A DNA stretch of 64,000 nucleotides from Pisaster brevispinus (Eukaryota; Echinodermata; Asteroidea; Forcipulatida; Asteriidae): the NCBI GenBank assembly GCA_023634235.1, contig JAMKCF010000188.1, positions 1-64,000 on the forward strand, given 5' to 3'. Below the pieces are notes generated by a model. It saw only the letters and a list, made by a program, of their open reading frames with translations, was not told where the DNA came from and made no database searches. Positions within the stretch are counted from its first letter, which is position 1. Every line of letters begins with the position of its first letter. This document shows positions 4,641 through 55,608 of this stretch, piece by piece. A program made the translations under genes and the position numbers.

Positions 4641-4920
4641 GTCTATGCTTGACATGTATTAAAGGCGCTACATAAGTCTATGCTTTACATGTATTAAAGG
4701 CACTACATAAGTCTAGGCTTTACATGTATTAAAGGCACTACATAAGTCTAGGCTTTACATGTATTAAAGGTGCTACATAAGTCTATGGTTTACATGTAAT
4801 AAAGGGGCTACATAAGTCTATGCTTTACATGTATTAAAGGCGCTACATAAGTCTAGGCTTTACATGTATTAAAGGCGCTACATAAGTCTATGCTTTACAT
4901 GTATTAAAGGCACTACATAA
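4641..4920. repeat. 35-bp satellite array, left part
   Basis: About eight head-to-tail copies of a 35-bp monomer (core GTCTATGCTTTACATGTATT then AAAGGCGCTACATAA). It is continuous with the large array that resumes at 5571; the two were one array before the 4921-5570 element inserted. Variable positions are TATGC/TAGGC and GGCGC/GGCAC. Confidence 0.97.
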
Positions 4921-5570: not shown

Positions 5571-8500
5571 ATAAGTCTATGCTTTACATGTATTAAAGGC
5601 GCTACATAAGTCTATGCTTTACATGTATTAAAGGCGCTACATAAGTCTATGCTTTACATGTATTAAAGGCACTACATAAGTCTATGCTTTACATGTATTA
5701 AAGGCGCTACATAAGTCTAGGCTTTACATGTATTAAAGGCACTACATAAGTCTATGCTTTACATGTATTAAAGGCACTACATAAGTCTATGCTTTACATG
5801 TATTAAAGGCGCTACATAAGTCTATGCTTTACATGTATTAAAGGCACTTCATAAGTCTAGGCTTTACATGTATTAAAGGCACTACATAAGTCTAGGCTTT
5901 ACATGTATTAAAGGCGCTACATAAGTCTAGGCTTTACATGTATTAAAGGCACTTCATAAGTCTATGCTTTACATGTATTAAAGGCACTACATAAGTCTAT
6001 GCTTTACATGTATTAAAGGCACTTCATAAGTCTAGGCTTTACATGTATTAAAGGCACTACATAAGTCTATGCTTTACATGTATTAAAGGCACTTCATAAG
6101 TCTAGGCTTTACATGTATTAAAGGCACTACATAAGTCTATGCTTTACATGTATTAAAGGCACTACATAAGTCTATGCTTTACATGTATTAAAGGCACTAC
6201 TAAGTCTATGCTTTACATGTATTAAAGGCGCTACATAAGTCTATGCTTTACATGTATTAAAGGCGCTACATAAGTCTATGCTTTACATGTATTAAAGGCG
6301 CTACATAAGTCTATGCTTTACATGTATTAAAGGCACTACATAAGTCTATGCTTTACATGTATTAAAGGCGCTACATAAGTCTATGCTTTACATGTATTAA
6401 AGGCGCTACATAAGTCTATGCTTTACATGTATTAAAGGCACTACTAAGTCTATGCTTTACATGTATTAAAGGCGCTACATAAGTCTATGCTTTACATGTA
6501 TTAAAGGCGCTACATAAGTCTATGCTTTACATGTATTAAAGGCACTACATAAGTCTATGCTTTACATGTATTAAAGGCACTTCATAAGTCTAGGCTTTAC
6601 ATGTATTAAAGGCACTACATAAGTCTATGCTTTACATGTATTAAAGGCACTTCATAAGTCTAGGCTTTACATGTATTAAAGGCACTACATAAGTCTATGC
6701 TTTACATGTATTAAAGGCACTACATAAGTCTATGCTTTACATGTATTAAAGGCACTACTAAGTCTATGCTTTACATGTATTAAAGGCGCTACATAAGTCT
6801 ATGCTTTACATGTATTAAAGGCGCTACATAAGTCTATGCTTTACATGTATTAAAGGCACTACATAAGTCTAGGCTTTACATGTATTAAAGGCGCTACATA
6901 AGTCTAGGCTTTACATGTATTAAAGGCACTACATAAGTCTATGCTTTACATGTATTAAAGGCGCTACAAAAGTCTATGCTTTACATGTAATAAAGGCGCT
7001 ACATAAGTCTAGGCTTTACATGTATTAAAGGCACTACATAAGTCTATGCTTTACATGTATTAAAGGCACTACATAAGTCTAGGCTTTACATGTATTAAAG
7101 GCACTACTAAGTCTATGCTTTACATGTATTAAAGGCACTACATAAGTCTAGGCTTTACATGTATTAAAGGCACTACATAAGTCTATGCTTTACATGTATT
7201 AAAGGCGCTACATAAGTCTAGGCTTTACATGTATTAAAGGCGCTACATAAGTCTATGCTTTACATGTATTAAAGGCGCTACATGAGTCTAGGCTTTACAT
7301 GTATTAAAGGCACTACATAAGTCTAGGCTTTACATGTATTAAAGGCGCTACATAAGTCTATGCTTTACATGTATTAAAGGCGCTACATGAGTCTAGGCTT
7401 TACATGTATTAAAGGCACTACATAAGTCTATGCTTTACATGTATTAAAGGCACTACATAAGTCTATGCTTTACATGTAATAAAGGCACTACATAAGTCTA
7501 GGCTTTACATGTATTAAAGGCACTACATATGTCTAGGCTTTACATGTATTAAAGGCGCTACATAAGTCTAGGCTTTACAAGTATTAAAGGCACTACATAA
7601 GTCTATGCTTTACATGTATTAAAGGCGCTACATAAGTCTATGCTTTACATGTATTAAAGGCGCTGCATAAGTCTAGGCTTTACATGTATTAAAGGCACTA
7701 CATAAGTCTAGGCTTTACATGTATTAAAGGCGCTACATAAGTCTATGCTTTACATGTATTAAAGGCGCTACATAAGTCTAGGCTTTACATGTATTAAAGG
7801 CACTACATAATTCTATGCTTTACATGTATTAAAGGCACTACATAAGTCTAGGCTTTACATGTATTAAAGGCACTACATAAGTCTATGCTTTACATGTATT
7901 AAAGGCACTACATAAGTCTAGGCTTTACATGTATTAAAGGCACTACTAAGTCTATGCTTTACATGTATTAAAGGCACTACATAAGTCTAGGCTTTACATG
8001 TATTAAAGGCACTACATAAGTCTATGCTTTACATGTATTAAAGGCGCTACATAAGTCTAGGCTTTACATGTATTAAAGGCGCTACATAAGTCTATGCTTT
8101 ACATGTATTAAAGGCGCTACATGAGTCTAGGCTTTACATGTATTAAAGGCACTACATAAGTCTAGGCTTTACATGTATTAAAGGCGCTACATAAGTCTAT
8201 GCTTTACATGTATTAAAGGCGCTACATAAGTCTAGGCTTTACATGTATTAAAGGCGCTACATAAGTCTATGCTTTACATGTATTAAAGGCGCTACATGAG
8301 TCTAGGCTTTACATGTATTAAAGGCACTACATAAGTCTAGGCTTTACATGTATTAAAGGCGCTACATAAGTCTATGCTTTACATGTATGAAAGGCGCTAC
8401 ATAAGTCTATGCTTTACATGTATTAAAGGCACTACTAAGTCTATGCTTTACATGTATTAAAGGCGCTACATAAGTCTATGCTTTACATGTATTAAAGGCG

Positions 8501-11500
8501 CTACATAAGTCTATGCTTTACATGTATTAAAGGCACTACATAAGTCTAGGCTTTACATGTATTAAAGGCGCTACATAAGTCTAGGCTTTACATGTATTAA
8601 AGGCACTACATAAGTCTATGCTTTACATGTATTAAAGGCGCTACAAAAGTCTATGCTTTACATGTAATAAAGGCGCTACATAAGTCTAGGCTTTACATGT
8701 ATTAAAGGCACTACATAAGTCTATGCTTTACATGTATTAAAGGCACTACATAAGTCTAGGCTTTACATGTATTAAAGGCACTACTAAGTCTATGCTTTAC
8801 ATGTATTAAAGGCACTACATAAGTCTAGGCTTTACATGTATTAAAGGCACTACATAATTCTATGCTTTACATGTATTAAAGGCGCTACATAAGTCTAGGC
8901 TTTACATGTATTAAAGGCGCTACATAAGTCTATGCTTTACATGTATTAAAGGCGCTACATGAGTCTAGGCTTTACATGTATTAAAGGCACTACATAAGTC
9001 TAGGCTTTACATGTATTAAAGGCGCTACATAAGTCTATGCTTTACATGTATTAAAGGCGCTACATGAGTCTAGGCTTTACATGTATTAAAGGCACTACAT
9101 AAGTCTATGCTTTACATGTATTAAAGGCACTACATAAGTCTATGCTTTACATGTAATAAAGGCACTACATAAGTCTAGGCTTTACATGTATTAAAGGCAC
9201 TACATATGTCTAGGCTTTACATGTATTAAAGGCGCTACATAAGTCTATGCTTTACAAGTATTAAAGGCACTACATAAGTCTATGCTTTACATGTATTAAA
9301 GGCGCTACATAAGTCTATGCTTTACATGTATTAAAGGCGCTGCATAAGTCTAGGCTTTACATGTATTAAAGGCACTACATAAGTCTAGGCTTTACATGTA
9401 TTAAAGGCGCTACATAAGTCTATGCTTTACATGTATTAAAGGCGCTACATAAGTCTAGGCTTTACATGTATTAAAGGCACTACATAATTCTATGCTTTAC
9501 ATGTATTAAAGGCACTACATAAGTCTAGGCTTTACATGTATTAAAGGCACTACATAAGTCTATGCTTTACATGTATTAAAGGCACTACATAAGTCTAGGC
9601 TTTACATGTATTAAAGGCACTACTAAGTCTATGCTTTACATGTATTAAAGGCACTACATAAGTCTAGGCTTTACATGTATTAAAGGCACTACATAAGTCT
9701 ATGCTTTACATGTATTAAAGGCGCTACATAAGTCTAGGCTTTACATGTATTAAAGGCGCTACATAAGTCTATGCTTTACATGTATTAAAGGCGCTACATG
9801 AGTCTAGGCTTTACATGTATTAAAGGCACTACATAAGTCTAGGCTTTACATTAATTAAAGGCGCTACATAAGTCTATGCTTTACATGTATTAAAGGCGCT
9901 ACATGAGTCTAGGCTTAACATGTATTAAAGGCACTACATAAGTCTATGCTTTACATGTATTAAAGGCACTACATAAGTCTATGCTTTACATGTAATAAAG
10001 GCACTACATAAGTCTAGGCTTTACATGTATTAAAGGCACTACATATGTCTAGGCTTTACATGTATTAAAGGCGCTACATAAGTCTATGCTTTACAAGTAT
10101 TAAAGGCACTACATAAGTCTATGCTTTACATGTATTAAAGGCGCTACATAAGTCTATGCTTTACATGTATTAAAGGCGCTGCATAAGTCTAGGCTTTACA
10201 TGTATTAAAGGCACTACATAAGTCTAGGCTTTACATGTATTAAAGGCGCTACATAAGTCTATGCTTTACATGTATTAAAGGCGCTACATAAGTCTAGGCT
10301 TTACATGTATTAAAGGCACTACATAATTCTATGCTTTACATGTATTAAAGGCACTACATAAGTCTAGGCTTTACATGTATTAAAGGCACTACATAAGTCT
10401 ATGCTTTACATGTAATAAAGGCGCTACATAAGTCTATGCTTTACATGTATTAAAGGCGCTACATAAGTCTATGCTTTACATGTATTAAAGGCACTACATA
10501 AGTCTATGCTTTACAAGTATTAAAGGCACTACATAAGTCTAGGCTTTACATGTATTAAAGGCGCTACATAAGTCTATGCTTTACATGTATTAAAAGCGCT
10601 ACATAAGTCTATGCTTTACATGTATTAAAGGCACTACATAAGTCTATGCTTAACATGTATTACAGGCACTACATAAGTCTATGCTTTACATGTATTAAAG
10701 GCGCTACATAAGTCTATGCTTTACATGTATTAAAGGCGCTACATAAGTCTATGCTTTACATGTATTAAAGGCACTACATAAGTCTATGCTTTACAAGTAT
10801 TAAAGGCACTACATAAGTCTAGGCTTTACATGTATTAAAGGCGCTACATAAGTCTATGCTTTACATGTATTAAAAGCGCTACATAAGTCTATGCTTTACA
10901 TGTATTAAAGGCACTACATAAGTCTATGCTTAACATGTATTACAGGCACTACATAAGTCTATGCTTTACATGTATTAAAGGCGCTACATAAGTCTATGCT
11001 TTACATGTATTAAAGGCACTACATAAGTCTATGCTTTAGATGTATTAAAGGCACTACATAAGTCTATGCTTTACATGTATTAAAGGCACTACATAAGTCT
11101 ATGCTTTACATGTATTAAAGGCACTACATAAGTCTATGCTTTACATGTATTCAAGGCACTACATAAGTCTATGCTTTACATGTATTAAAGGCACTACATA
11201 AGTCTATGCTTTACATGTATTAAAGGCGCTACATAAGTCTATGCTTTACATGTATTAAAGGCGCTGCATAAGTCTAGGCTTTACATGTATTAAAGGCACT
11301 ACATAAGTCTAGGCTTTACATGTATTAAAGGCGCTACATAAGTCTATGCTTTACATGTATTAAAGGCGCTACATAAGTCTAGGCTTTACATGTATTAAAG
11401 GCACTACATAATTCTATGCTTTACATGTATTAAAGGCACTACATAAGTCTAGGCTTTACATGTATTAAAGGCACTACATAAGTCTATGCTTTACATGTAA

Positions 11501-12358
11501 TAAAGGCGCTACATAAGTCTATGCTTTACATGTATTAAAGGCGCTACATAAGTCTATGCTTTACATGTATTAAAGGCGCTACATAAGTCTATGCTTTACA
11601 TGTATTAATGGCACTTCATAAGTCTATGCTTTACAAGTATTAAAGGCACTACATAAGTCTAGGCTTTACATGTATTAAAGGCGCTACATAAGTCTATGCT
11701 TTACATGTATTAAAAGCGCTACATAAGTCTATGCTTTACATGTATTAAAGGCACTACATAAGTCTATGCTTAACATGTATTACAGGCACTACATAAGTCT
11801 ATGCTTTACATGTATTAAAGGCGCTACATAAGTCTATGCTTTACATGTATTAAAGGCGCTACATAAGTCTATGCTTTACATGTATTAAAGGCACTACATA
11901 AGTCTATGCTTTACAAGTATTAAAGGCACTACATAAGTCTAGGCTTTACATGTATTAAAGGCGCTACATAAGTCTATGCTTTACATGTATTAAAAGCGCT
12001 ACATAAGTCTATGCTTTACATGTATTAAAGGCACTACATAAGTCTATGCTTAACATGTATTACAGGCACTACATAAGTCTATGCTTTACATGTATTAAAG
12101 GCGCTACATAAGTCTATGCTTTACATGTATTAAAGGCACTACATAAGTCTATGCTTTAGATGTATTAAAGGCACTACATAAGTCTATGCTTTACATGTAT
12201 TAAAGGCACTACATAAGTCTATGCTTTACATGTATTAAAGGCACTACATAAGTCTATGCTTTACATGTATTCAAGGCACTACATAAGTCTATGCTTTACA
12301 TGTATTAAAGGCACTACATAAGTCTATGCTTTACATGTAATAAAGGCACTTCATAAGT
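5571..12358. repeat. 35-bp satellite array, main part
   Basis: About 194 near-identical tandem monomers of 35 bp, measured from the spacing of successive GCTTTAC words (for example 9004 and 9039). Rare variants recur at fixed distances and reveal higher-order units: CTACAAAAG at 6964 and 8641 (1,677 bp), CTACATGAG at 7383 and 9060 (1,677 bp) and again 839 bp later, and TTAAAAGCG at 10591, 10871, 11711 and 11991 (280 and 1,120 bp). A few monomers lack one base (CTACTAAG). No coding potential. Function unknown; such arrays can be pericentromeric or dispersed minisatellites. Confidence 0.97.
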
Positions 12359-17263: not shown

Positions 17264-19046
17264 CTACATGTATTTATCACGTCGGATTTCAGCATACTCA
17301 CTCTGCTCCTCCAACTGAAGTGTTTCTGTGTTCCTGGCTGATGAGGGGCGATGTAAGTCCAAGTCCGCATATACCAGTCCCTCCACGTTTTTCTTGCGTG
17401 ACACAACATCTTCTTCAATGGGTGTGTCTGATTCTTTGCCGTCCTCATCTGGTAGTTGATTGACTTTGTGATGGTCATTCTTCCCTGGGTGGTTTGGTTT
17501 GGTATTCATAGGTTTGTTCACCATTGTGTATATCGCTTGGTCCCTTGCGTGCCCAATCTCCTCGTCCACGCTGTCTCCATTAGTGACTGTGTAACCATCT
17601 TGACTAGTTGTTGATTGAGCAGGCACGCCATATCTCTTGATTTCGATACGTCCAGTCTTATCGGCACACGCGTACAACACTTCAGCCTCTTTCGTAGCAC
17701 CACTTGACATCCTGGCATTCCGATCCCCTGCAACATCCAACGGGATGTCGTCGTACGTTTGACCATTTTGATCCTCGCTGCTCACAGTTACTCTCTCACC
17801 TGTAGGCGATCTCTGCTCATGTGTAGCCGCCGTCTGCCCTGGTCCAGTGGGGTTGTGTTTGTGTTTAATCAAGTAGCATCCAAGCAAAGCTATGATTATC
17901 AGAAAGAAGATTGCACCGATGATTCCACCAACAATAATTATAACACCAGAGCCTTGCAAGGTGTTTTCGTCATTGTTGGAGGCTATCGTTGTCTTTGGTG
18001 TGGCCGCAGGTAAAGGCAAGACGAATAACAGTGAATCATTGACACTTGAAATTGTTGTACTGCCTTGAAATGCAATGCATCTGATCTTAGAATTGTTGAA
18101 TTCTCCAAGAGTGACGTCAATAATCTGAAGAGTTTTTCCATTTTGGTCAAGTTTAAACCGACCAACCAGGTTCTGCACGGTGTCTCGGTTAACCTTTACT
18201 TTGCCTTTGTCAACCAGGAACACGCGCCATTCATCTACGCGCCATTCACCTATCTGCTAGCTGTTGTGGTGTAGACTTCAAGTCACATGTGAATGTCGCG
18301 TTCTGGTGTTCAAGTAGCTTCAAATGAGAGGGTGAGATTGAGACAGTCGTTGGTATCTGAAGAGGCGTAATGGAGCAATTTGGACCTTTAAGGTGGGGAC
18401 CAGCTACACATATAAACTCTCTCATATTGTCAGACTCAGTCAACTCTTGCTCAACTGCGTAAGTCTCACCTGGATTGACTTCTGTTTTATCTTCAATCTG
18501 GAAAGCATCGCTTGATGTGGATTGGAACCAGGTCAACAAGCTAGGAGGGTCGCGTTCTGAGAGAGTGCAATTAAGTGAGACGGATTCACCGACTCTTGGT
18601 CGACTTGGATAAATGTTACAGGAAGGTTTATACTCGGGGAGAAGTGGATTAACTGTCAATAAAGCTGTCTCACTGCTGTGTTGCCATTTTGTCTCAACCA
18701 TATTACACCAATAAGTCCCACTGTCATCTCGTTGGACGTTATTGATTTGCAGCTGATAGCGCTCACTGTCCTGCTCAACAACAATGCTACGTCTTGCAAA
18801 GTTTAATTTTAGACGGGAACAAACAGAAATTTGCTGGATGTTAGAATGTTGATAAAGTTTTCTCTTCCAACTGAATTGATAAACAGTACAGGTTGTTAAA
18901 TACAATGATCCACAAGTGAGTGTAACATTACTCCCCTCGGTGACTGTAACACTCTGTGGGTTCAAGTTGAAGGGCTGAAATTCTGCCTTACAGATCAATG
19001 CAGTCAAGACAATGCTCATCAACATACACAATGTTATGATATCCAT
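17264..19046 (-). CDS. ITIM-bearing Ig-superfamily receptor, one frameshift
   Basis: A type I membrane receptor in two abutting frames (19046-18246 and 18274-17264). The ATG at 19046 has a strong context (AAGATGG) and opens a signal peptide, MDIITLCMLMSIVLTALICK. Three Ig domains follow: the first has LTC and DDSGTYWC, the second SLNC and FICVA, and the third FTC, an EWRVF core and IRCIAF. There are several N-glycosylation sites (NVT, NCT, NCS, NAT). A membrane helix (GVIIIVGGIIGAIFFLIIIA) precedes a tail of about 200 residues. The tail holds two canonical ITIMs, LVYADL and SEYAEI, 25 residues apart, plus other tyrosines (TYDDI, AIYTMV, GYTV), suggesting SHP-type phosphatase recruitment. The frame breaks inside Ig domain 3 near 18245-18260, next to a 15-bp direct duplication (GAATGGCGCGT twice). 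No introns are visible, unusual for Ig receptors. It is a retrocopy, a recent pseudogene, or an intact gene with an assembly error. No named orthologue is claimed. Confidence 0.8.
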
Positions 19047-19091
19047 CTTCACACGTCTGGTAACATTGACAGCCCGGCAATATCTTATCAA

Positions 19092-29176: not shown

Positions 29177-29345
29177 AGGTTGTATGGCTTCTGACTGGCA
29201 TCCCTGAACAAAGATATTGACAAAAACAGGGGGAGATGGCCAACATAGGGCTAGATAGCTAAGTTGGTAGAGCACCAGCCTGTTAAACTGGAGGCTATTG
29301 GTTCAAATCCCACTCTAGTAAATTTTTCTTTGTTGAACCCAAAGT
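29177..29345 (+). mobile_element. tRNA-like SINE, copy A (Asn-type anticodon loop)
   Basis: A tRNA-like body at 29250-29319 has a D-arm (TAGCTAAGTTGGTAGAGC), an anticodon stem-loop with loop CTGTTAA (GTT, asparagine) closed by CCAG/CTGG, a T-arm (GGTTCAAATCC) and a short acceptor stem (CTAGA/TCTAG). The same 70-bp upstream (TTCTGACTGGCA, AACAAAGATATTGAC) and downstream (AATTTTTCTTTGTTGAACCC) text recurs around the copy at 55.5 kb. It is therefore a dispersed element rather than a free tRNA gene. Confidence 0.8.
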
Positions 29346-41559: not shown

Positions 41560-42483
41560 GTTTATATCTAAGACCAATGCACTCAATTGCATCCAATATT
41601 CGCATATATTCCTAAATTTAGTCTCTGCTTAAAAGGTTTATATAAGAATAAGAAGGACAAGAACATGATTGCATCAAAAGTTTCTGGTAGCTGTAAGTAT
41701 TGTAAATTGATATAGAAAGTTTAAAATCCAAGTTGTGTCTGGATGTTTTATTTGCTTGTATCGTGTATTTGTCTGATATGTATTATGTTTTATTATTCGT
41801 CTTTGACAACAATAAAATAAATTTATCAGCATTTCCCCAAATGGAAAGCAAAACAAAACGTAGATGCCTAGTTACTATTACCTTTATACTATTCTGAAGC
41901 AAAATTATTACAGCCTACCTTGTTTGTATTTTTAATCATTTTTTTCACCATCAATAAAGTGTTTTACACACAAAGATTATGGAGATATTGGTTTGAGTCC
42001 ACTAAGTAACTTTGATGGTAATATTAATGAAAAGGGGAACAAACTTTTCTTATTGCAGGAAAGAGTCTGAACCAGTGTAGTCTGCTTGGAGCAGCATCCA
42101 TGAAGACGCACGGTAGCAAAGAACCCATTGGGTGGGAGGAGGGGGGGACTTTAAGAACCGATGAAGGGGTGACGATGGCGGCGTTGAGAATGTTTAGACT
42201 GTGGGTAAACGCGGATGACTTGAAACAATTTAGGAATGTTGGAACACAAACTGTATGGTTAGTTGTGAAGGAAATGGTAATTTATAAGACACTCCATGAT
42301 TTGGTACGGGTGATTTTGATTGATGTTCAATGTTTGTTTGCTTGTTTTTTAGGTGTTTTTTTACTGTGTGTAACTATGGTTAAATGTAGTATTTATAACG
42401 GAAGATGCAAGAACACTGCACTGTTCAGTTTTGGTGTAGTACGGCTGGCTGGTAATAAAACTATTCGGTTATTATGCAGTATA
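41560..42483. other. Non-coding stretch before the large transposon
   Basis: A plus-strand frame at 42100-42501 runs into the transposon's inverted repeat and is probably chance. The TA at 42482-42483 forms the left flank of the transposon. Confidence 0.4.
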
Positions 42484-42660
42484 GTGGTGCGGCATAGCTA
42501 ACCTATCGTGCATTTTGTGATAAAAGCATCAAATTTGGCACAGATGTAGAGAATAGTGTTCTGAACAAAAATGGATATTGGGCCATCGCAAATTCCGTCC
42601 CTGAGAGCCGTGGCGGCCATTTTGGAAAATGGCCGCCGTTTTAGGGACATATTTGCTTAC
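42484..42660. repeat. Left terminal inverted repeat of the 6.4-kb transposon
   Basis: It pairs with about 48715-48893 in inverted orientation. It includes a near-perfect 26-bp palindrome at 42612-42637 (12-bp arms GGCGGCCATTTT and AAAATGGCCGCC around GG). Confidence 0.85.
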
Positions 42661-43163
42661 ATATCAACACCAGAATTTACTAATGCCATTAATAGGCACT
42701 AAACATCATCTGAAATGATTATTTAATAATTTAAGCAATGTTAAAATAATCTTAAAGGGGTATTTTGCATCTTAAAGGGGTATTTGCCACTTTTCACAAA
42801 ATTCTTCCATTTTGAAATCGTCTTTTTCACATAATGAAAACAGCCATAAAACTCAGCAAAAAACTCTGGAATGACATACCTTAAAATTTTGATCGGACTC
42901 AATTAAAAGTTTGCACAAAAATAATAATACCCCCTATAGTCAAACATTAATACCCCTTTAACATATTAGTAATGTTAAAATCAGTACAATTTAATTGTTT
43001 CTCACGAACAACAAAATGCTTCATTAATCATTATCAACTATACCTTTCGATAAAATAATCATTCTGTCGGGATTGCTCTACTATTCGGCCACAGGAGCTC
43101 ACAATCATGATAGAAATATTGAAAGTACGACACCCCATCGTGGACATGGGTCAAATAAACTTG

Positions 43164-46100
43164 TCAGCAAGCCCCTTCACAACCACACATGTCTGTGCAT
43201 TCAAGTGCAGATATTTTGCATGTACACTTATTCTCAACGCAACCTTTCTTCTTCAAGTTGCAGTTACATCGTACTAGTTCATAGCAGGCTTTAGAGGCCT
43301 CTGGTAGTGCTGTCCAGTACGGTTCAAAAAGACCATCATCTGTCTTGGTCCAGCCCCAGCTGGTCGGTGAAGGAAGTGTTGGATTGGCTAGCAGTGTCTG
43401 TCCCCATACATGGCCTCCTTGGTACGTGGCTCGCTTCACATGTTGCTCTAGAGCTGCTCTTGTTGGCGGAATTTGTTTCACATTTGGCTTCCTTGAGAAT
43501 ATTTTTTGTCGTGCCTTGTTGATGTCTGCACCTGTATTTGTCCTATCATAGAGCAAGATTACGAACCTCTCGATAGTAGGCATGACATCTTCTGGTATGA
43601 CACTTGGTGCCGAAGCTAATTTCAGAAGAACATCAGTTAGTTCTGGCAGAGACTTCCAGGTTTTCCATGCAGTCTTCTTACCATGTCCAACAAAGCTAGA
43701 GACAGTGTCACAGCCGCTAAGCGAGTGGAACATTGGAAGTGCTCGTGCTTTGTTGGGGCCAAGGCGATGTGCGATTGTGTGAGCTGCCAAGTACCGAAAA
43801 CTCTTCCCGGTCCCAAATGCTAGCCAGAGTTCAGTTTCTGGTTCTAGACATTGTACTACAGAAACAGCCAAGACCACAACATCGGTATCTACAGTCCGGA
43901 TGAGTATTTTGTTATGGTTGTGATGAGCTGCATGGGCTACATGCAACAGCATACGGCTATCCGCCTCTTCGTGACTGCATGGGGCGAGCGAAGTAGTATT
44001 CTGCAGTGGTGGTTTGCTCAGTACAGATTCCCCATCAGTGATGACAAGTTGTTTATCCTCAAGATCAAATGACATGAGAAGAGCATGAGACAGGAATCTG
44101 AAGAGCTCTGTCTTGTTGCTGTCTACACGAAGAAAGTCTTGCCAATTTCTTGGTATGGCAGTTTCTGCAACCACACGTCTGCGTACGCCCTTCCCACGCT
44201 TTGCTCTAGCTGTACCTTTCAGGGAATTATCAATATATCTATCCCATACCAGATCTACACGTGACGCTTTATGAAACTGTGAGGTAATGTATGGAACGAA
44301 GGTATTGTGTGCATACTCCTCAAAGTTCTTAGCAGCAGCAGGCCTTATCATCTGGACGATGACTGATCCATCAAGAACTACACTGCTTGTCGTAGGAGCC
44401 TCAGATTGTACCTCACTAAATTCTTCCAAGCACACAAGAAGATCACTTTTGGTACCTAGATACAGATTTCTGCCATCAGAGAGTGCTGGAGGAAATGCTT
44501 GGTTCTCGTGTCGAAAAAATTCTTCCAGGTTTCCGTATCTATTCTGACAACCAATATAGAGCCGCGAGAAGAGTGCCAGGTCAGATTTTAGTGAAGTTAT
44601 CTGCTGCTTTCCTTTGCTGGTGGTTGGTTTAGTAGAGCCTTTAAACAGCTTCAGTTTATTGCGATGGATCACATCATTGATGGGTTTTGACCTTTCCATG
44701 AGACATTCTTTGATGAAACCTTTGAATTGATCTTGACCAATTTTCTTAGCATTTCGCACACTTTGTACTGAAGCATGGTCTGCAATCTCTTTAGTATCAA
44801 GTACCAGGAGGTCAGTGCCTAATTCTTCAAATGGGTTGCCAAGGTCATCAATCACGCGAACGAGGGAGCGGACATCTTTAGCAAATGTAGCCTGAACACT
44901 TGGTGTTTGCTCATGATGACGTGTATCTGTCTGTCTCTTTCTGTAATGCTGCTCATCGTGGAACTCTTGTATTATTCTCGCAACCTCTGGTCCGGCTACC
45001 ATCCAACGGAGTAGGGCTCTTGGGTTGTTGGTGAGGCCAACAGCTCCTCAATCGTCTTTTATGTATGCGTTGTTTTGTTCGTGTGCCTGATCTATAGGGA
45101 TTGCGGAGAAGACCTTGTTGGTTTTTTGCACAGTGAAGTTTCCAGCAGTAAACATCTTATTCACTTCAGGGTATTTGGTTGGGAGTTCAGCCATATCTCT
45201 CAGGTGAACAGGAATCCATCTAGCATAGTTTGTGTGATCTAAGGCATGGAACCAAGTTGCCAGCTCTGTCACGGCATCAATATACATTGGGAAGGATCCT
45301 ACCCGCTGAGAGCGCACATAGATCAGTATGCGTAGTTCCAGTTCCATCACAGTTGCCCAGTACTGAAAATGTGGACAGGACTGCTCTCGTTGTTTGCACC
45401 AGTCTTCGAACTCCAGCGTTTTATGGTCATCTTCGGCGCAAGTCAGGCAGTAGTGGTCATAAGCACGTCGTTGAAGTATGTACAATGCTGACACTGTCAC
45501 TTGGTGTGCTCTTCTTGTACGAGAAAGATGTGCTGCCCGTAAGAAAGAGTCGGCTGTCCCTGGGGTTGTAATATCTGCCTGCACCAGTGCTTGCACCCAG
45601 CCACTACCTTGTAACCAGTCACCAAGAGTCTTGAGAGCAGCCATTTCAATATGGAGACCGCCAAACATGATGACAATTTTGTCTTCTCCATATTCTTCTG
45701 GCCATTTCCACTGGATTTGTTTTGCCATTGCATACAGTGGCTGATCAAAGGTGATTACTGGCGTCTGCCCTAGGTTCAGATGCTCTACTGCATTCCAGAT
45801 CACATCCATGGAGTGCTTGATCATTGCCACTGTGTGGGCACATTCATGAAACAGTGGAAGCAGGGAACTAGGGCATATGGCATGACCCACAGGTGGTTGT
45901 TGGCGTGCATGGTATGCAGCCCATGACGTATTTTCAAAAGTCTCAGTTTCACTTGCGGACTTGTCTAGGACTTGTCGAGTATGATTAAGCCAGCAGTATT
46001 CTACCTCAGTATGTTGCTTTAAGTTGTCCCGTCTGAAGGATGTCACACTGGTAGCGGGTACAGGTTGATTCTTTATGCTGCTGGTGACAGGAGGCACATC

Positions 46101-47747
46101 AGTGTAGAAATGTGGCAGATGATCCACTGATTTGGACTGTGAATCTCCAAATCTCCCAGCTATGACAATGTTTCGATCCAGTCCTTCACCATCTGAATGT
46201 GGATGCTGGATCAGGGAAATACCAGTGCCATGAAATGACTCTTTTGAAGTAGTTGAGCTGGGGTTATGATCAATGTTGTCCACAGCAGCAGTGGTGAACA
46301 CACGGCCTCGCAACTTAGGAGGACAAACCACCTTTTCTCTGCAATACTGCTCACATACACTGTTTCCTATCTGTGCTGAGAGACGAAGAATGCGGTCATA
46401 TGAGATGCTCAATCCCAGGTGAGAAAGTCGGTCTATTAATTCTCTTTTGCGTGTATGAGCATGCATCATCAATCCTGTGTAAATGGGGATTGGTGTCTCC
46501 TGTGCAGTGCTGTGTCTCACACTGGAAGGTTTTGTTGCGGATCCTGTACGTTTATGTTTGATGCTGTTGAACTTTAACAGTTGGGCAATTGGTAAAGCAG
46601 CAGGTGTTCGGTCTTCACTTTGATCCTTGATGCTGGGTCCCTCAAGTACCATATTGACGAGAGAAACCAGCATTGGTGGAACGGAGTCTTGTTGACATCC
46701 AGCAGGAAACCCAACAAAGGGTTTAGCATCTTCAAACATATGTCGACGAACAATTTGTGCTGCACGTGCAAGATGGACTGCATCATTGTCTTCATCAAAC
46801 TCACAGGCTTTGGCTAAGGCAGCACCGATGTCTTCTTCAAATGCTAACAAGACATCCCTGCCTCTCTTCTGGGACTGCATATGTGGAAACTGCGTCAGAA
46901 GGCGCTGCTTGAGTCGAGTTGTATGTACTTTGGCATCTAGAGTGACCCCAAGCTGTTCCATTCTGGACATGTATAGCTTTGCCAGATCAGCAAGTTTGAA
47001 CACTGGAGCTGTGTCTTCGTCTAGGGTGGTTTCCTCGATGTACATTACTAGCTCTGCAAAGACAATTCCTGCCATTGTTTCCTTTTCATTGGTACACTTG
47101 AGTCTTTCAGTCTTTGCCGCTCTTACACGATTGTACAAGCTTACTAGGCATTTGGCATGGTACTTGGCTTCCAGGGCCACCATGTCTCCAGGACTTAGCT
47201 TTGCTAACAGCTCTGTATCCTCAAGAAAAACAGCACTGTCGCGTACTCGTTTGTCCATCTGCAATGTAGCTGCTTCATGGAAACCATCTGTACCTGGAGA
47301 TTCTCCACAGAAAAAGCACCTGGCTTCTTGGAAGCCGATGTCGATACTTTGAGACCGTGTGCGCTTGCAAAGACTCTGAGTCTCACTGCCTGTTTTCAAC
47401 ACTCTTTTTTCTGCTCTTACTAACTTTGTATTGTTGTATTTAAGTCTGCATGATTGATGGTAAAGAGCGTTGTTAGCAATCATAGCTGCTTCAATTCCGT
47501 GCCCTTCATCTAGTTTTTCCAACTGAATCGGTAATTGTCCAATTTTATTGAAATCCACCAAGTTTTTTGCCAAAGAACTGTATCCACTTCCAGAGTCTTT
47601 CCTTTTAGATTGTGTTGGAATCGTCAGTGGCTCTAAATTATCTTCTTGACAAATCATACACAGCTTCCAGTTTGTTTGAGGTGGATGTTGTTGTGAAGTT
47701 TGAGGGGCTAAGCACCTTGGGTCAATCAGTTTAAATGTCTTTGACAT
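43164..47747 (-). CDS. Transposon protein: zinc modules, possible DDE core, FEN1-like nuclease, CXC
   Basis: A continuous frame of 1,527 codons with one internal TGA at 45048-45050; both halves and the 15 codons between them are in phase. The ATG at 47747 has context ACCATG. The first half (899 residues) has two CxxC...HxxC modules (C30/C33/H97/C100 and C144/C147/H197/C200), then AAVDNIDHN (about 487-495), VITFDQPLYA (664-673) and IDQAHEQNN (885-893), a possible DDE series. The second half, numbered from its first Met, matches FEN1/XPG chemistry: VVLDGSV (D211), RVDLVWDRY (D254) with SLKGTARAKRG, HEEADSR (E345/E346/D348), VDTDVVVL (D372/D374) and SGCDTVSSFVGHGK (D432). Residues 579-612 form a cysteine-rich tesmin/TSO1-like domain (RCNCNLKKKGC to CGCEGAC). 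It probably acts on DNA in the nucleus as the element's recombinase. The TGA, after AYIKDD and before GAVGL, makes this copy defective or dependent on readthrough. Confidence 0.85.
45003..45050 (-). other. In-frame TGA and linker joining the two halves
   Basis: TGA is followed by 15 sense codons (GAVGLTNNPRALLRW) leading directly to the Met that opens the second half. Frame and composition are continuous across it. A Gly codon (GGA) turned into TGA by one change is the simplest explanation. Confidence 0.85.
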
Positions 47748-48714
47748 GGTATTTTTGTCTTGTTAGTCCTGTTACATGTTAATCAACCGCTGTTCTAGCA
47801 ACACTTTTATCTCATATAAGGCCTATTGATCACCAAGCATTAGTCCTTCAAAGAAACAACTTATTTTACTGGCTAAAAGAGTGTGACACAAGCTAAGCAA
47901 TCCTAAGCACGACTGAAGCGCTTTATAAGATTTATTGTTGTTATTTGCAAAAGCACAAATCCGCCTGAAACAACTACACAATAACCAAGGTTATATTTCA
48001 TACAGTTATGGGTATTAAAACAACAACAAATAACTAAAAGACCATCAAATTTTATGCCTCAAAAATTCTCTATTTTCAAAGACTTTAAAAGTACACATAC
48101 ACCTACATGTACAGTAAGCTGCTGTATGCCCTGATTCCACAAGTAAAGTTGCCATAAATGTATCACAAATGTATCACAATTGTTATACAATACACGTATT
48201 ACTTAATGTAATACATAAAACTTGACCTGGTGATCTATTTCGGTGCATGCAGTGGCCCGCTGTTACCAGGCAGATCCAAATCAGAAGTAAACGTGTTGTT
48301 CATGTCAGCTTTCTTATCACGTTGTTACCAGGCAGATCCATAACAGAGGGAAATGTGTAGTTAATGACCATTTTGAATAGTGGCTGCCACAATAATATTA
48401 AAATAGCCAGTTTGTGAAATAAACCTGAGTCATACTTTTTATAATTGTTTATACCTCTGAATATTATAAAAGAACTTCTCCATGTAGTATCGCTGATTAT
48501 TTTGAAGGATTTTATATGCAATATAGGGGAACTTATGATAAATGGTACATGGCGGCCATTTTGGAGGGTGACTTTTGCCAAACAAATTGACCCGTCTATC
48601 TGTACAAAGTGTGTAGTCACTTATTAATAGTTGCCAACACCTTTTCAGACAAGTTAAACAGTATCGTAGCCTCATAGAAGCTCACATTAAGAAGGTTTTG
48701 CATTTAATATAGAG

Positions 48715-48893
48715 AGAAAAGTGGCTTTTGGCGGCCATTTTCGAAAATGGCCGCCAAAGCCGCTAGGAGCAAAAATTGAAATGGCCCAATATCCAAATAT
48801 TTTTGTAACACATTAATTTACCTGTATACCAAATCCCTTGCTTTTATCACAAAATGCACAATTGTTATTATATTTTGTGTTATGCCGCCTTAC
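48715..48893. repeat. Right terminal inverted repeat of the 6.4-kb transposon
   Basis: It is the inverted partner of 42484-42660. It contains a perfect 32-bp palindrome at 48727-48758 centred on TTTTCGAAAA. A further half-site, GGCGGCCATTTTGGA, lies at about 48551. Confidence 0.85.
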
Positions 48894-49560
48894 TAGTATT
48901 AATTCAGTAAATAAGAGACTCTCCGTGATTAGGCTGTTGGGTGTTGATAATGAATGTTTTTCCTTCTTTTCTTGTTTGAGGAAAGTTGGAAACAAAAGTA
49001 TGATTTTAGTGAAGGAAAAATTAATTAGGGTGAGTGATTGATTCGTGTATGGGTGTGTTTCGGTTGGGTTGGGGTTAAGGTTATGGTTAATTTGGAAATA
49101 CAACTCTGCGTTTACAAACAGCTAGATTCATGAGAAAATATTTATGACAGTAACTCCGTGATTCAGATGTTGTGTTTTCAGTTAATGTTAACGTTAGTTT
49201 TTTTTAAAGTTTTTTTAGGAAGGTTGGAAATAAATTATTCAGTTACAAACAGCAGTTTTAAAGGAAAGAGTAATGTCACAGTAACTCCTTGATTAGGTTG
49301 TGTGTGTGTGTGTGGGGAGGGGGGGGGGGGGGCATTCGGCAAAGAAACTCTGCCGTTGCAGGTATTATTCATGAGGTAAAGATTACTATGCACGTGAAAT
49401 TTCATAATACGGGTTGTTTTATGTTGTTCAATCTTCTTTTTTAGATTGTTGGTGAAATAAAACTACGGTTACATGCTCTTTCTTTCTGTTTCTTTTTGAG
49501 GACATTTGGTAACAAAATTATGCAGTAGTACGAGCAGTAGTCACGAATGAAAGAAAACTG
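48894..49560. other. Non-coding flank with G-run
   Basis: No gene is seen. A short TG repeat and a G-run lie at about 49297-49332. Confidence 0.4.
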
Positions 49561-51790
49561 TAAGTGAAATTCGTGCGTGGGATGTGGGGTGTTTTCAATA
49601 GGTGTTGAAATGGGGGGGGGGGTAAGTTTACAACAAAATATGAAACTGCATTTTACTAGTAGTATTCAAGAAGGAAAGATCAGTGTACGAGTATTACTAT
49701 ATGGTTCGAAATGCTTGCACGCTTGTGTCTTAATTTTTAATGTTTTTTCTAAGATTATTGATAATAAAAGTAGTCATATGAAGTAGTGAGTAGCAATAAA
49801 AGACCGAATGATTCGGGATGTGTGCAATTTTGTTTCTTGGTGTTCGTTATTTCTTTGTAAGATTGTTGTTATGATACAAATGTTTTTCTGGACGGTTGGG
49901 AATAAAACTTTGTGGTTAAAAACAGCAGTCCAGGAGGAAAGAGTATGCAAAAGAAAATCCATGATAGGAATAAGGGTGTTTTGGGGTGGGTTATTTGGGG
50001 TAAGGGTTAGGGTAAGAAATAAAACTCTGCAGTTCAGAGGAAGAGTAATGTAAAAGGAACTCTATGATAGGGATTAAGGTGTTTTAGGTCGGTTGTTTGG
50101 GGTTAGGGTTAGGGTTAGGGTTAGGGTTAGAAACAAAACTGCAGTTCAGCGGAAAGAGTCATGTAAAATAAACTCTATGATAGGGATTAGGGTGTTTTGG
50201 GTCGGTTATTTGGGGTTAGGGTTAGGGTGAAGTTTAGAAATAAAACTCTGATAGGGATTAGGGTGTTTTGGGTGGGTTGTTTGGGTTATGGTTAGGGTTA
50301 GAAATAAAACTCTGCAGTTCAGAGGAAAGAGTCATGTAAAATAAACTCTATGATAGGGATAAGGGTGTTTTGGGGTGGGCTTATTTGGGTTAGGGTTAGG
50401 GTGAAGGTTAGAAATAAAACTCTGATAGGGATTAAGGTGTTTTGGGTCGGTTGTTTGGGGTTAGGGTAAGGGTGAAGTTTAGAAATAAACTCTGATAGGG
50501 ATTAGGGTGTTTTGGGTCGGTTGTTTGGGGTTAGGGTTAGGGTTAGGGTTAGTATTAAAACTCTGCAGTTTAGAGGAAAGAGTAATGTAAAATAAACTCT
50601 ATGATAGGGATTAGGGTGTTTTGGGTCGGTTGTTTGGGGTTAGGGTTAGGGTAAAGTTTAGAAATAAAACTCTGATAGGGATTAGGGTGTTTTGGGTGGG
50701 TTGTTTGGGTTATGGTTAGGGTTAGAAATAAAACTCTGCAGTTCAGAGGAAAGAGTCATGTAAAATAAACTCTATGATAGGGATAAGGGTGTTTTGGGGT
50801 GGGCTTATTTGGGTTAGGGTTAGGGTGAAGGTTAGAAATAAAACTCTGATAGGGATTAAGGTGTTTTGGGTCGGTTGTTTGGGGTTAGGGTAAGGGTGAA
50901 GTTTAGAAATAAACTCTGATAGGGATTAGGGTGTTTTGGGTCGGTTGTTTGGGGTTAGGGTTAGGGTTAGGGTTAGTATTAAAACTCTGCAGTTTAGAGG
51001 AAAGAGTAATGTAAAATAAACTCTATGATAGGGATTAGGGTGTTTTGGGTCGGTTGTTTGGGGTTAGGGTTAGGGTAAAGTTTAGAAATAAAACTCTGAT
51101 TGGGATTAGGGTGTTTTGGGTGGGTTATTTCAGTTAGGTTAGGTTAGAAATAAAACTCTGCAGTTCAGAGGAAAGAGTCATGTAAAATAAACTCTATGAT
51201 AGGGATTAGGGTGTTTTGGGTGGGGTGGGCTTATTTGGGTTAAGGTTAGGGTGAAGGTTAGAAATAAAACTCTGATAGGGATTAGGGTGTTTTGGGGTGG
51301 GTTATTTGGGGTTAGGGTGAGGGTTAGAAATAAAACTCTGCAGTTCAGCGGAAAGAGTCATGTAAAATAAACTCTATGATAGAGATTAGGGTGTTTTGGG
51401 TCCGTTGTTTGGGGTTAGGGTTAGGGTGAAGGTTAGAAATAAAACTCTGCAGTTAAGAGGCAAATAGTAATGTAAAAGAAACGTTTTGATAGTGATCGGG
51501 GTATTTCGGGGTTGGTTGGTCGTGCTTAGGGTTAGGGTTAGGGTTTTTCACGGGACGGTTGGAAATAAAACCCTGCAGTTACACACAGCATTCCAGGAGG
51601 AAAGAGTAATGTAAAAGAAACTCCATAATAGGGAATGGGGTGTTTTCTGTTTGGTTAGGGTTAGGGTTAGGGTTATGGTTAGGGTAAGGGTTAGGGCTAG
51701 GGTTATGGTTAGGGTAAGGGTTAGGGTTAGGGTTATGGTTAGGGTAATGGTTAGGGTTAGGGTAAGGGTTAGGCTTTTTGTGATGGTTAG
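49561..51790. repeat. Interstitial telomere-like compound minisatellite
   Basis: Tracts of TTAGGG and variants (TAAGGG, TTATGG) alternate with a conserved unit containing AATAAAACTCTGCAGTTCAG, GGAAAGAGTCATGTAAAATA and GATAGGGATTAGGGTGTTTT. Blocks repeat with a 424-bp higher-order period (for example 50251 and 50675). The end, 51655-51778, is almost pure telomere-like repeat. Long open frames on both strands here (MVRVRVRV and TLTLTITLT types) come from the repeat and are not genes. Confidence 0.9.
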
Positions 51791-55442: not shown

Positions 55443-55608
55443 GGTTGAATGGCTTCTGACTGGCACTCCAGAACAAAGATATTGACTAATAGGGAGACCG
55501 CCAACATAGGGCTGGATAGCTCAGTTGGTAGAGCGCCAGTACGTTAACCCGGAGGTTGTTGGTTCAAGTCCCGCTCCAGTCAATTTTTCTTTATTCAAAC
55601 CCAAATGA
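55443..55608 (+). mobile_element. tRNA-like SINE, copy B
   Basis: The tRNA-like body at 55510-55581 has a D-arm (TAGCTCAGTTGGTAGAGCG), an anticodon loop ACGTTAA (GTT) on a mismatched stem, a T-arm (GGTTCAAGTCC) and acceptor stem CTGGA/TCCAG. The flanking text on both sides is shared with 29177-29345. The C in place of the invariant T33 and the weak anticodon stem argue against a working tRNA. Confidence 0.8.

Follow-up and report, generated by a model that had tools for sequence, protein, structure and literature searches.

If a DNA transposon encodes a predicted flap endonuclease of its own, does the enzyme complete integration, or does it cut the second strand? This question is raised by an element at positions 42482 to 48895 (minus strand) of a 64,000-nucleotide stretch of the sea star Pisaster brevispinus genome (assembly GCA_023634235.1, contig JAMKCF010000188.1, positions 1 to 64,000, forward strand; hereafter the window). 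One protein of this terminal-inverted-repeat DNA transposon combines a likely DDE transposase, a predicted FEN1/XPG/Exo1-fold nuclease and a CXC cysteine cluster, and the element is likely an AcademX transposon; we put the probability of this reading at roughly 0.85. An earlier note, made from the letters of this DNA, had recognized the nuclease active site, had described the protein as built on a flap-endonuclease fold, and had known of no such transposon protein. In our analysis a likely DDE transposase domain, in a half of the protein that the earlier note did not mention, comes first, and the nuclease is joined on after it. The combination is also already known: nuclease-bearing Academ transposons have been named in the literature, and the available part of one paper describes a nuclease-encoding lineage, AcademX (PMC10045372).

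The C-terminal half has a predicted FEN/XPG fold and a conserved active site

Two protein searches returned 921 and 583 matches, of which the best 120 of each were listed. From these we built an alignment (A1) of 102 rows, consisting of the window protein and 101 mostly full-length homologues, and ten distant rows from the same genome (L015–L024) were compared besides. The gene occupies 43164 to 47747 on the minus strand, the strand of every domain and residue located below, and comprises 1,527 codons and a stop. Residues 760–1122 in the numbering of the structure model (43365 to 44453) came out as a FEN/XPG/Exo1-like fold, which was the first check proposed in the earlier note; single-sequence AlphaFold2 prediction of the C-terminal half was uninformative (predicted local distance difference test score, 33.6). 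All five acidic blocks that it had listed (DG, VWD, EEAD, DTD and GCD) were present and conserved, together with the basic residues after VWD. The FEN1 equivalents given for them there are D34, D86, E158/E160, D179/D181 and D233, respectively. The blocks are represented by the Asp of LDG (residue 787; 44370 to 44372), the Asp of VWD (residue 830; 44241 to 44243), EEAD (residues 921–924; 43959 to 43970), DTD (residues 948–950; 43881 to 43889), and the Asp of GCD (residue 1008), which is followed by a GxGK stretch that likely forms a helix-two-turn-helix (43677 to 43709 for both).

Residues D787, D826, E921, E922, D924, D948, D950, D1008 and K1018 were identical in all 102 rows. The Asp of VWD was retained in 101 rows, with a single Glu, and in 10 of the 10 distant rows; the Trp before it was replaced by Phe in 18 of 102 rows, giving a FEN1-like FD. 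Among the basic residues that follow, K838 and R845 were present in 102/102 rows and R842 in 101/102. Between model residues 562 and 1188, only 9 of 70 Asp and Glu residues are invariant across the alignment, and 7 of these 9 fall inside the named blocks; given these counts and the conservation across rows, we rejected a chance origin of the blocks. Acidic blocks other than VWD were also kept in most of the distant rows that reach them. The exceptions were L024 (Tyr at D787), L020 (Gln at E921), L021 (Asn at K1018, with the GCD block missing), and the broken copies L017 and L018, which are gapped. The predicted fold and the ordered acidic, putative metal-binding residues agree with the FEN/XPG superfamily, and the C-terminal half is predicted to be a nuclease of the FEN1/XPG/Exo1 fold. 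It resembles FEN1, XPG, Exo1 and GEN1 in that fold, in the order of the acidic blocks, in the basic residues after VWD/VFD and in the Gly-x-Gly-Lys after the last Asp; it differs from them in its fusion to a likely transposase and in lacking detectable sequence-profile similarity.

When the structure model (medc378349a54) was compared with viral structures, predicted proteins of fish and frog herpesviruses appeared among the ten best matches, beside viral XRN nucleases. Lake sturgeon herpesvirus and Cyprinid herpesvirus 2 each contributed an Allo54, and Ranid herpesviruses 3 and 4 contributed uncharacterized proteins. Viral contigs were also searched with A2: 135 stretches fitted a pattern, and none was a relative by tblastn.

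A likely DDE transposase precedes the nuclease

Judging from the structure model, the stretch from 45051 to 46313 likely encodes a DDE transposase domain (RNase H-like) that contains a helical insertion. The first Asp of the likely triad (VDNIDH, residue 151; 46278 to 46280) was Asp in 98 of the 98 rows with a letter at that position, of 102. The second (DQP, residue 329; 45744 to 45746) was Asp in 99 of 100 such rows and Asn in the other, and the Glu of HEQNN (residue 551; 45078 to 45080) was present in 102/102. D151 ends the first strand (145–152) of the model, D329 stands just after a later strand (325–328), and E551 lies in a helix (546–558); the helical insertion separates the second Asp from the Glu. 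In RNase H-like DDE transposases, strands and helices follow one another in this order. From the strand order, the conserved triad and a weak match in structure, the N-terminal half is likely a DDE transposase.

The later part of this domain fits DUF6589 in some homologues. Among the matches listed, six homologues carry a precomputed DUF6589 tag (PF20231). We rescanned five of them (P0107 was left out): three scored above the Pfam cut-off and two just below it, and in 5/5 the DUF6589 stretch spans the HEQNN region. Two further homologues matched DUF6589 only at E-values of 0.11 and 0.54. In homologues P0160, P0171 and P0068, DUF6589, a domain of unknown function, falls around the likely catalytic Glu. 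Because the match surrounds this residue, the family may itself cover a DDE transposase domain. A literature search for DUF6589 turned up only an unrelated paper.

Upstream of the likely transposase domain, a Cys/His-rich region with two CxxC...HxxC-like clusters (47133 to 47669, approximate limits) is marked by conserved Cys and His columns, and from this pattern it likely binds zinc. At the other end of the protein, the CXC cysteine cluster (43167 to 43274) keeps its pattern in 97/102 rows; some relatives are named 'Tesmin/TSO1-like CXC' in their source records. The single 1,527-codon frame that had been read in the window has the extent proposed, from 47747 to 43164, and is not open: an in-frame TGA at codon 900 (45048 to 45050) breaks it. 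In a near-identical copy elsewhere in the genome, L009, the corresponding frame runs through its 1,527 codons without a break.

Element ends and target site duplications

To place the ends, we relied on other copies in the same genome. With the C-terminal half as query, a search of its 549.7 Mb (512 contigs) at E ≤ 0.001 yielded at least 87 matching stretches, some copies giving several. Seventeen copies were considered, namely that of the window and those at 16 other places (L009–L024). Alignment with six close copies (L009–L014) fixed the element at 42482 to 48895, a length of 6,414 bp that starts with TAGT and ends with ACTA; these limits are common to L009 and other copies. A transposon is therefore present as the earlier note had held, with limits two nucleotides further out on each side than the 42484 to 48893 given there. 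Inverted termini of about 170 bp had been expected, and imperfect ones of ~156 bp (left; 42482 to 42637, plus strand) and ~166 bp (right; 48730 to 48895, minus strand) were found. The TA that had been read as flanking sequence belongs to the element and forms its tips. The true duplication is GTA on both sides, seen by flank comparison at 42479 to 42481 and 48896 to 48898 (strand not assigned), and as it measures 3 bp, a TA target duplication was rejected.

Duplications were counted in the 13 of 17 copies for which both ends were found, leaving out L013 (right end) and L020, L021 and L022 (ends). Ten of the 13 bear a 3-bp duplication (GTA, CTT, TTA, TTA, TTT, TTG, TAG, GAC, AAT and AAT), and in none does it extend to 4 bp. 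All ten have TAG at both ends, read inwards, and the 3-bp duplication extends to families down to 24% protein identity (L023 and L024). Tc1/mariner elements duplicate TA; here the duplications are 3 bp long and varied in sequence, with TA as the element tip, so we did not assign the element to that group. The Kyakuja-Dileera-Zisupton (KDZ) group, considered for its CXC cluster, makes 8-bp duplications and was rejected, since 0 of 13 copies match at 4–10 bp. A host gene in place of a transposon was likewise rejected, given the ends, the duplications and the 87 matching stretches in one genome.

The copy L009 is 99.67% identical to the window element across 6,414 alignment columns. For L011, L012 and L013, ratios of nonsynonymous to synonymous substitution rates (dN/dS) against L009 were 0.16 to 0.68 in both halves of the protein. 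Among the more distant relatives, L020 (C3:14326900-14334900 of the same genome; 28% identical) has one open stretch that reaches from stop to stop over 1,372 codons.

Likely placement in AcademX

The AcademX nuclease goes by the name XPG in the literature. As stated in the part of PMC10045372 available, which cites Kojima 2020 (Mob DNA 11:15), target duplications are 3 or 4 bp in AcademX and 9 or 10 bp in AcademH, a difference seemingly tied to the encoded nuclease and helicase. We file the element as a likely AcademX because it agrees with these descriptions: the same frame holds a likely DDE transposase with a conserved D, D, E triad and a nuclease of predicted FEN/XPG fold, and the duplications are of 3 bp. 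The filing is a comparison with printed descriptions of the lineage. If it is right, AcademH, with a helicase in place of the nuclease and longer duplications in the text available, belongs to the same superfamily. Judging from the available part of PMC10294476, many Academ elements occur in bivalves, where curated ones average 5,565 bp; the length of our element is only somewhat above this mean and is thus no argument against Academ.

Two other systems offer partial parallels. Transib and RAG1 resemble our protein in the DDE core, likely RNase H-like here, and in the insertion that precedes its Glu, as seen in weak Foldseek rows. Transib, by contrast, makes 5-bp duplications and is not known to carry a FEN-type domain. 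The Kolobok lineages KolobokE, KolobokD and KolobokP are likewise DDE transposons that bring an extra nuclease; in the part of PMC9587614 available, however, the nuclease folds are PD-(D/E)xK, DEDDh and His-Me.

Several observations weigh against this reading of the protein and its placement. At the sequence level, no Pfam nuclease match (PF00867/PF00752) was obtained for the window protein or the 11 homologues scanned, and no nuclease of the FEN type came up when PDB sequences were searched with a profile. Comparison of hidden Markov models, a further check proposed in the earlier note, gave nothing significant against T5 D15 or archaeal FEN-1: hhalign returned 0.1% against T5 D15; against 119 archaeal FEN-1 proteins (120 listed, minus one short) it returned 0.5%, a value under those of the reversed-sequence controls of this second comparison (2.3 and 16.8%), in which the DDE half as a further control gave 0.4%. 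At the structural level, Foldseek against the PDB gave no match at E ≤ 0.001; HzTransib ranked 14 (E = 0.14, probability 0.47) and RAG1 ranked 23 (probability 0.06), both weak matches. The window protein itself had no DUF6589 match in the Pfam scan. Lastly, 3 of the 13 copies lack a 3-bp duplication, with none in L010 and L014 and a match at 1 and 2 bp only in L011, and in the low-divergence comparisons (window, L010 and L014) dN/dS scattered from 0 to 2.6, several of these values resting on few changes.

Possible roles of the nuclease

We propose the following scheme. DNA binding would be the task of the Cys-rich N-terminal region together with the CXC cluster. The DDE domain would carry out both cleavage at the ends and their joining to target DNA, with a stagger of 3 bp. 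Strand transfer would leave short gaps, and 5' flaps as well if the 5' strand were cut outside the element. At each of the two gapped junctions, the FEN-type domain of the same protein would next remove the 5' flap, after which host polymerase and ligase would finish by fill-in and ligation to give the 3-bp duplication. Taken jointly, the AcademX-type identity stated above and a nuclease that works on branched 5' ends in the course of transposition are, in our judgement, probable. That its particular task is to trim 5' flaps at gapped integration junctions is a tentative proposal, to which we give somewhat less than even odds. Flap or hairpin processing, as suggested in the earlier note, is a reasonable putative role. 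Our literature search, with subscription papers mostly outside its reach, found no study of nuclease function in Academ. The role of the nuclease is testable thanks to the fold prediction, the invariant active site, the clear 3-bp duplications and the near-identical open copy L009.

Alternatively, the FEN-type domain might make the second-strand cut, cleaving the 5' strands with the DDE domain cutting the 3' ends only, by analogy to Tn7, in which TnsA works beside TnsB. FEN enzymes usually require a free 5' flap or branch and not uncut duplex, a preference that argues against such a cut; the fusion of the nuclease to the transposase and the retention of its active site in relatives speak for it. 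As far as the available part of PMC10045372 goes, the two Academ lineages differ in both enzyme and duplication length, hence the second enzyme may act in cutting or joining. However, the sister lineage bears a helicase instead (PMC10045372, same part), so a nuclease is not needed by all Academ transposases. Altogether we regard second-strand cutting as rather unlikely.

Less likely still, the nuclease would open hairpins or other branched donor-DNA intermediates left by a RAG1- or Transib-like DDE domain. Transib and RAG1 both make flanking hairpins, and structures of both are found, weakly, among the Foldseek matches; with match probabilities of 0.47 and 0.06, this role is doubtful. Also improbable is a self-sufficient protein, in which the DDE transposase and a built-in flap endonuclease would finish their own junctions free of host FEN1 in a superfamily of their own, set apart by ends that start with TAG, 3-bp duplications and the CXC cluster.

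As to placement, the element could instead represent a separate, undescribed superfamily, outside Academ, that also joined a DDE transposase to a FEN-type nuclease. Academ was compared by description, and for the DDE half Pfam has nothing beyond DUF6589, a family of unknown function that covers part of it in some homologues, which leaves room for such a superfamily. Nevertheless, the nuclease and the 3-bp duplication agree with what the available part of PMC10045372 says of AcademX, and the length, somewhat above the mean of curated bivalve Academ elements in the accessible part of PMC10294476, does not count against it; we consider a separate superfamily very unlikely, and likely AcademX membership the better reading. 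Finally, a dead nuclease scaffold that serves DNA binding only is highly improbable: its activity is a prediction and in the distant copy L024 the first Asp is replaced by Tyr, but the acidic positions are kept in 102/102 rows (101 for VWD) and in most of ten relatives down to 24% identity.

Other features of the window

Nested GGGTTA-rich tandem repeats lie at 49998–51773, ~1 to 3 kb from the right end of the transposon, and include a run of GGTTAG units (51653–51773). Far to the left, a 6.8-kb tandem array (5571–12358) consists of ~194 copies of a 35-bp unit with a 95% match, and is preceded by a smaller array (4641–4920) whose unit is nearly the same. An open frame of 281 amino acids at 18246–19091 (minus strand) encodes immunoglobulin domains (Ig_3, E = 1.1e-17; V-set; I-set) and likely belongs to a gene for a surface protein of an animal. 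Two transfer RNA matches scored above the Rfam cut-off, at 29249–29321 and 55510–55582, both on the plus strand.
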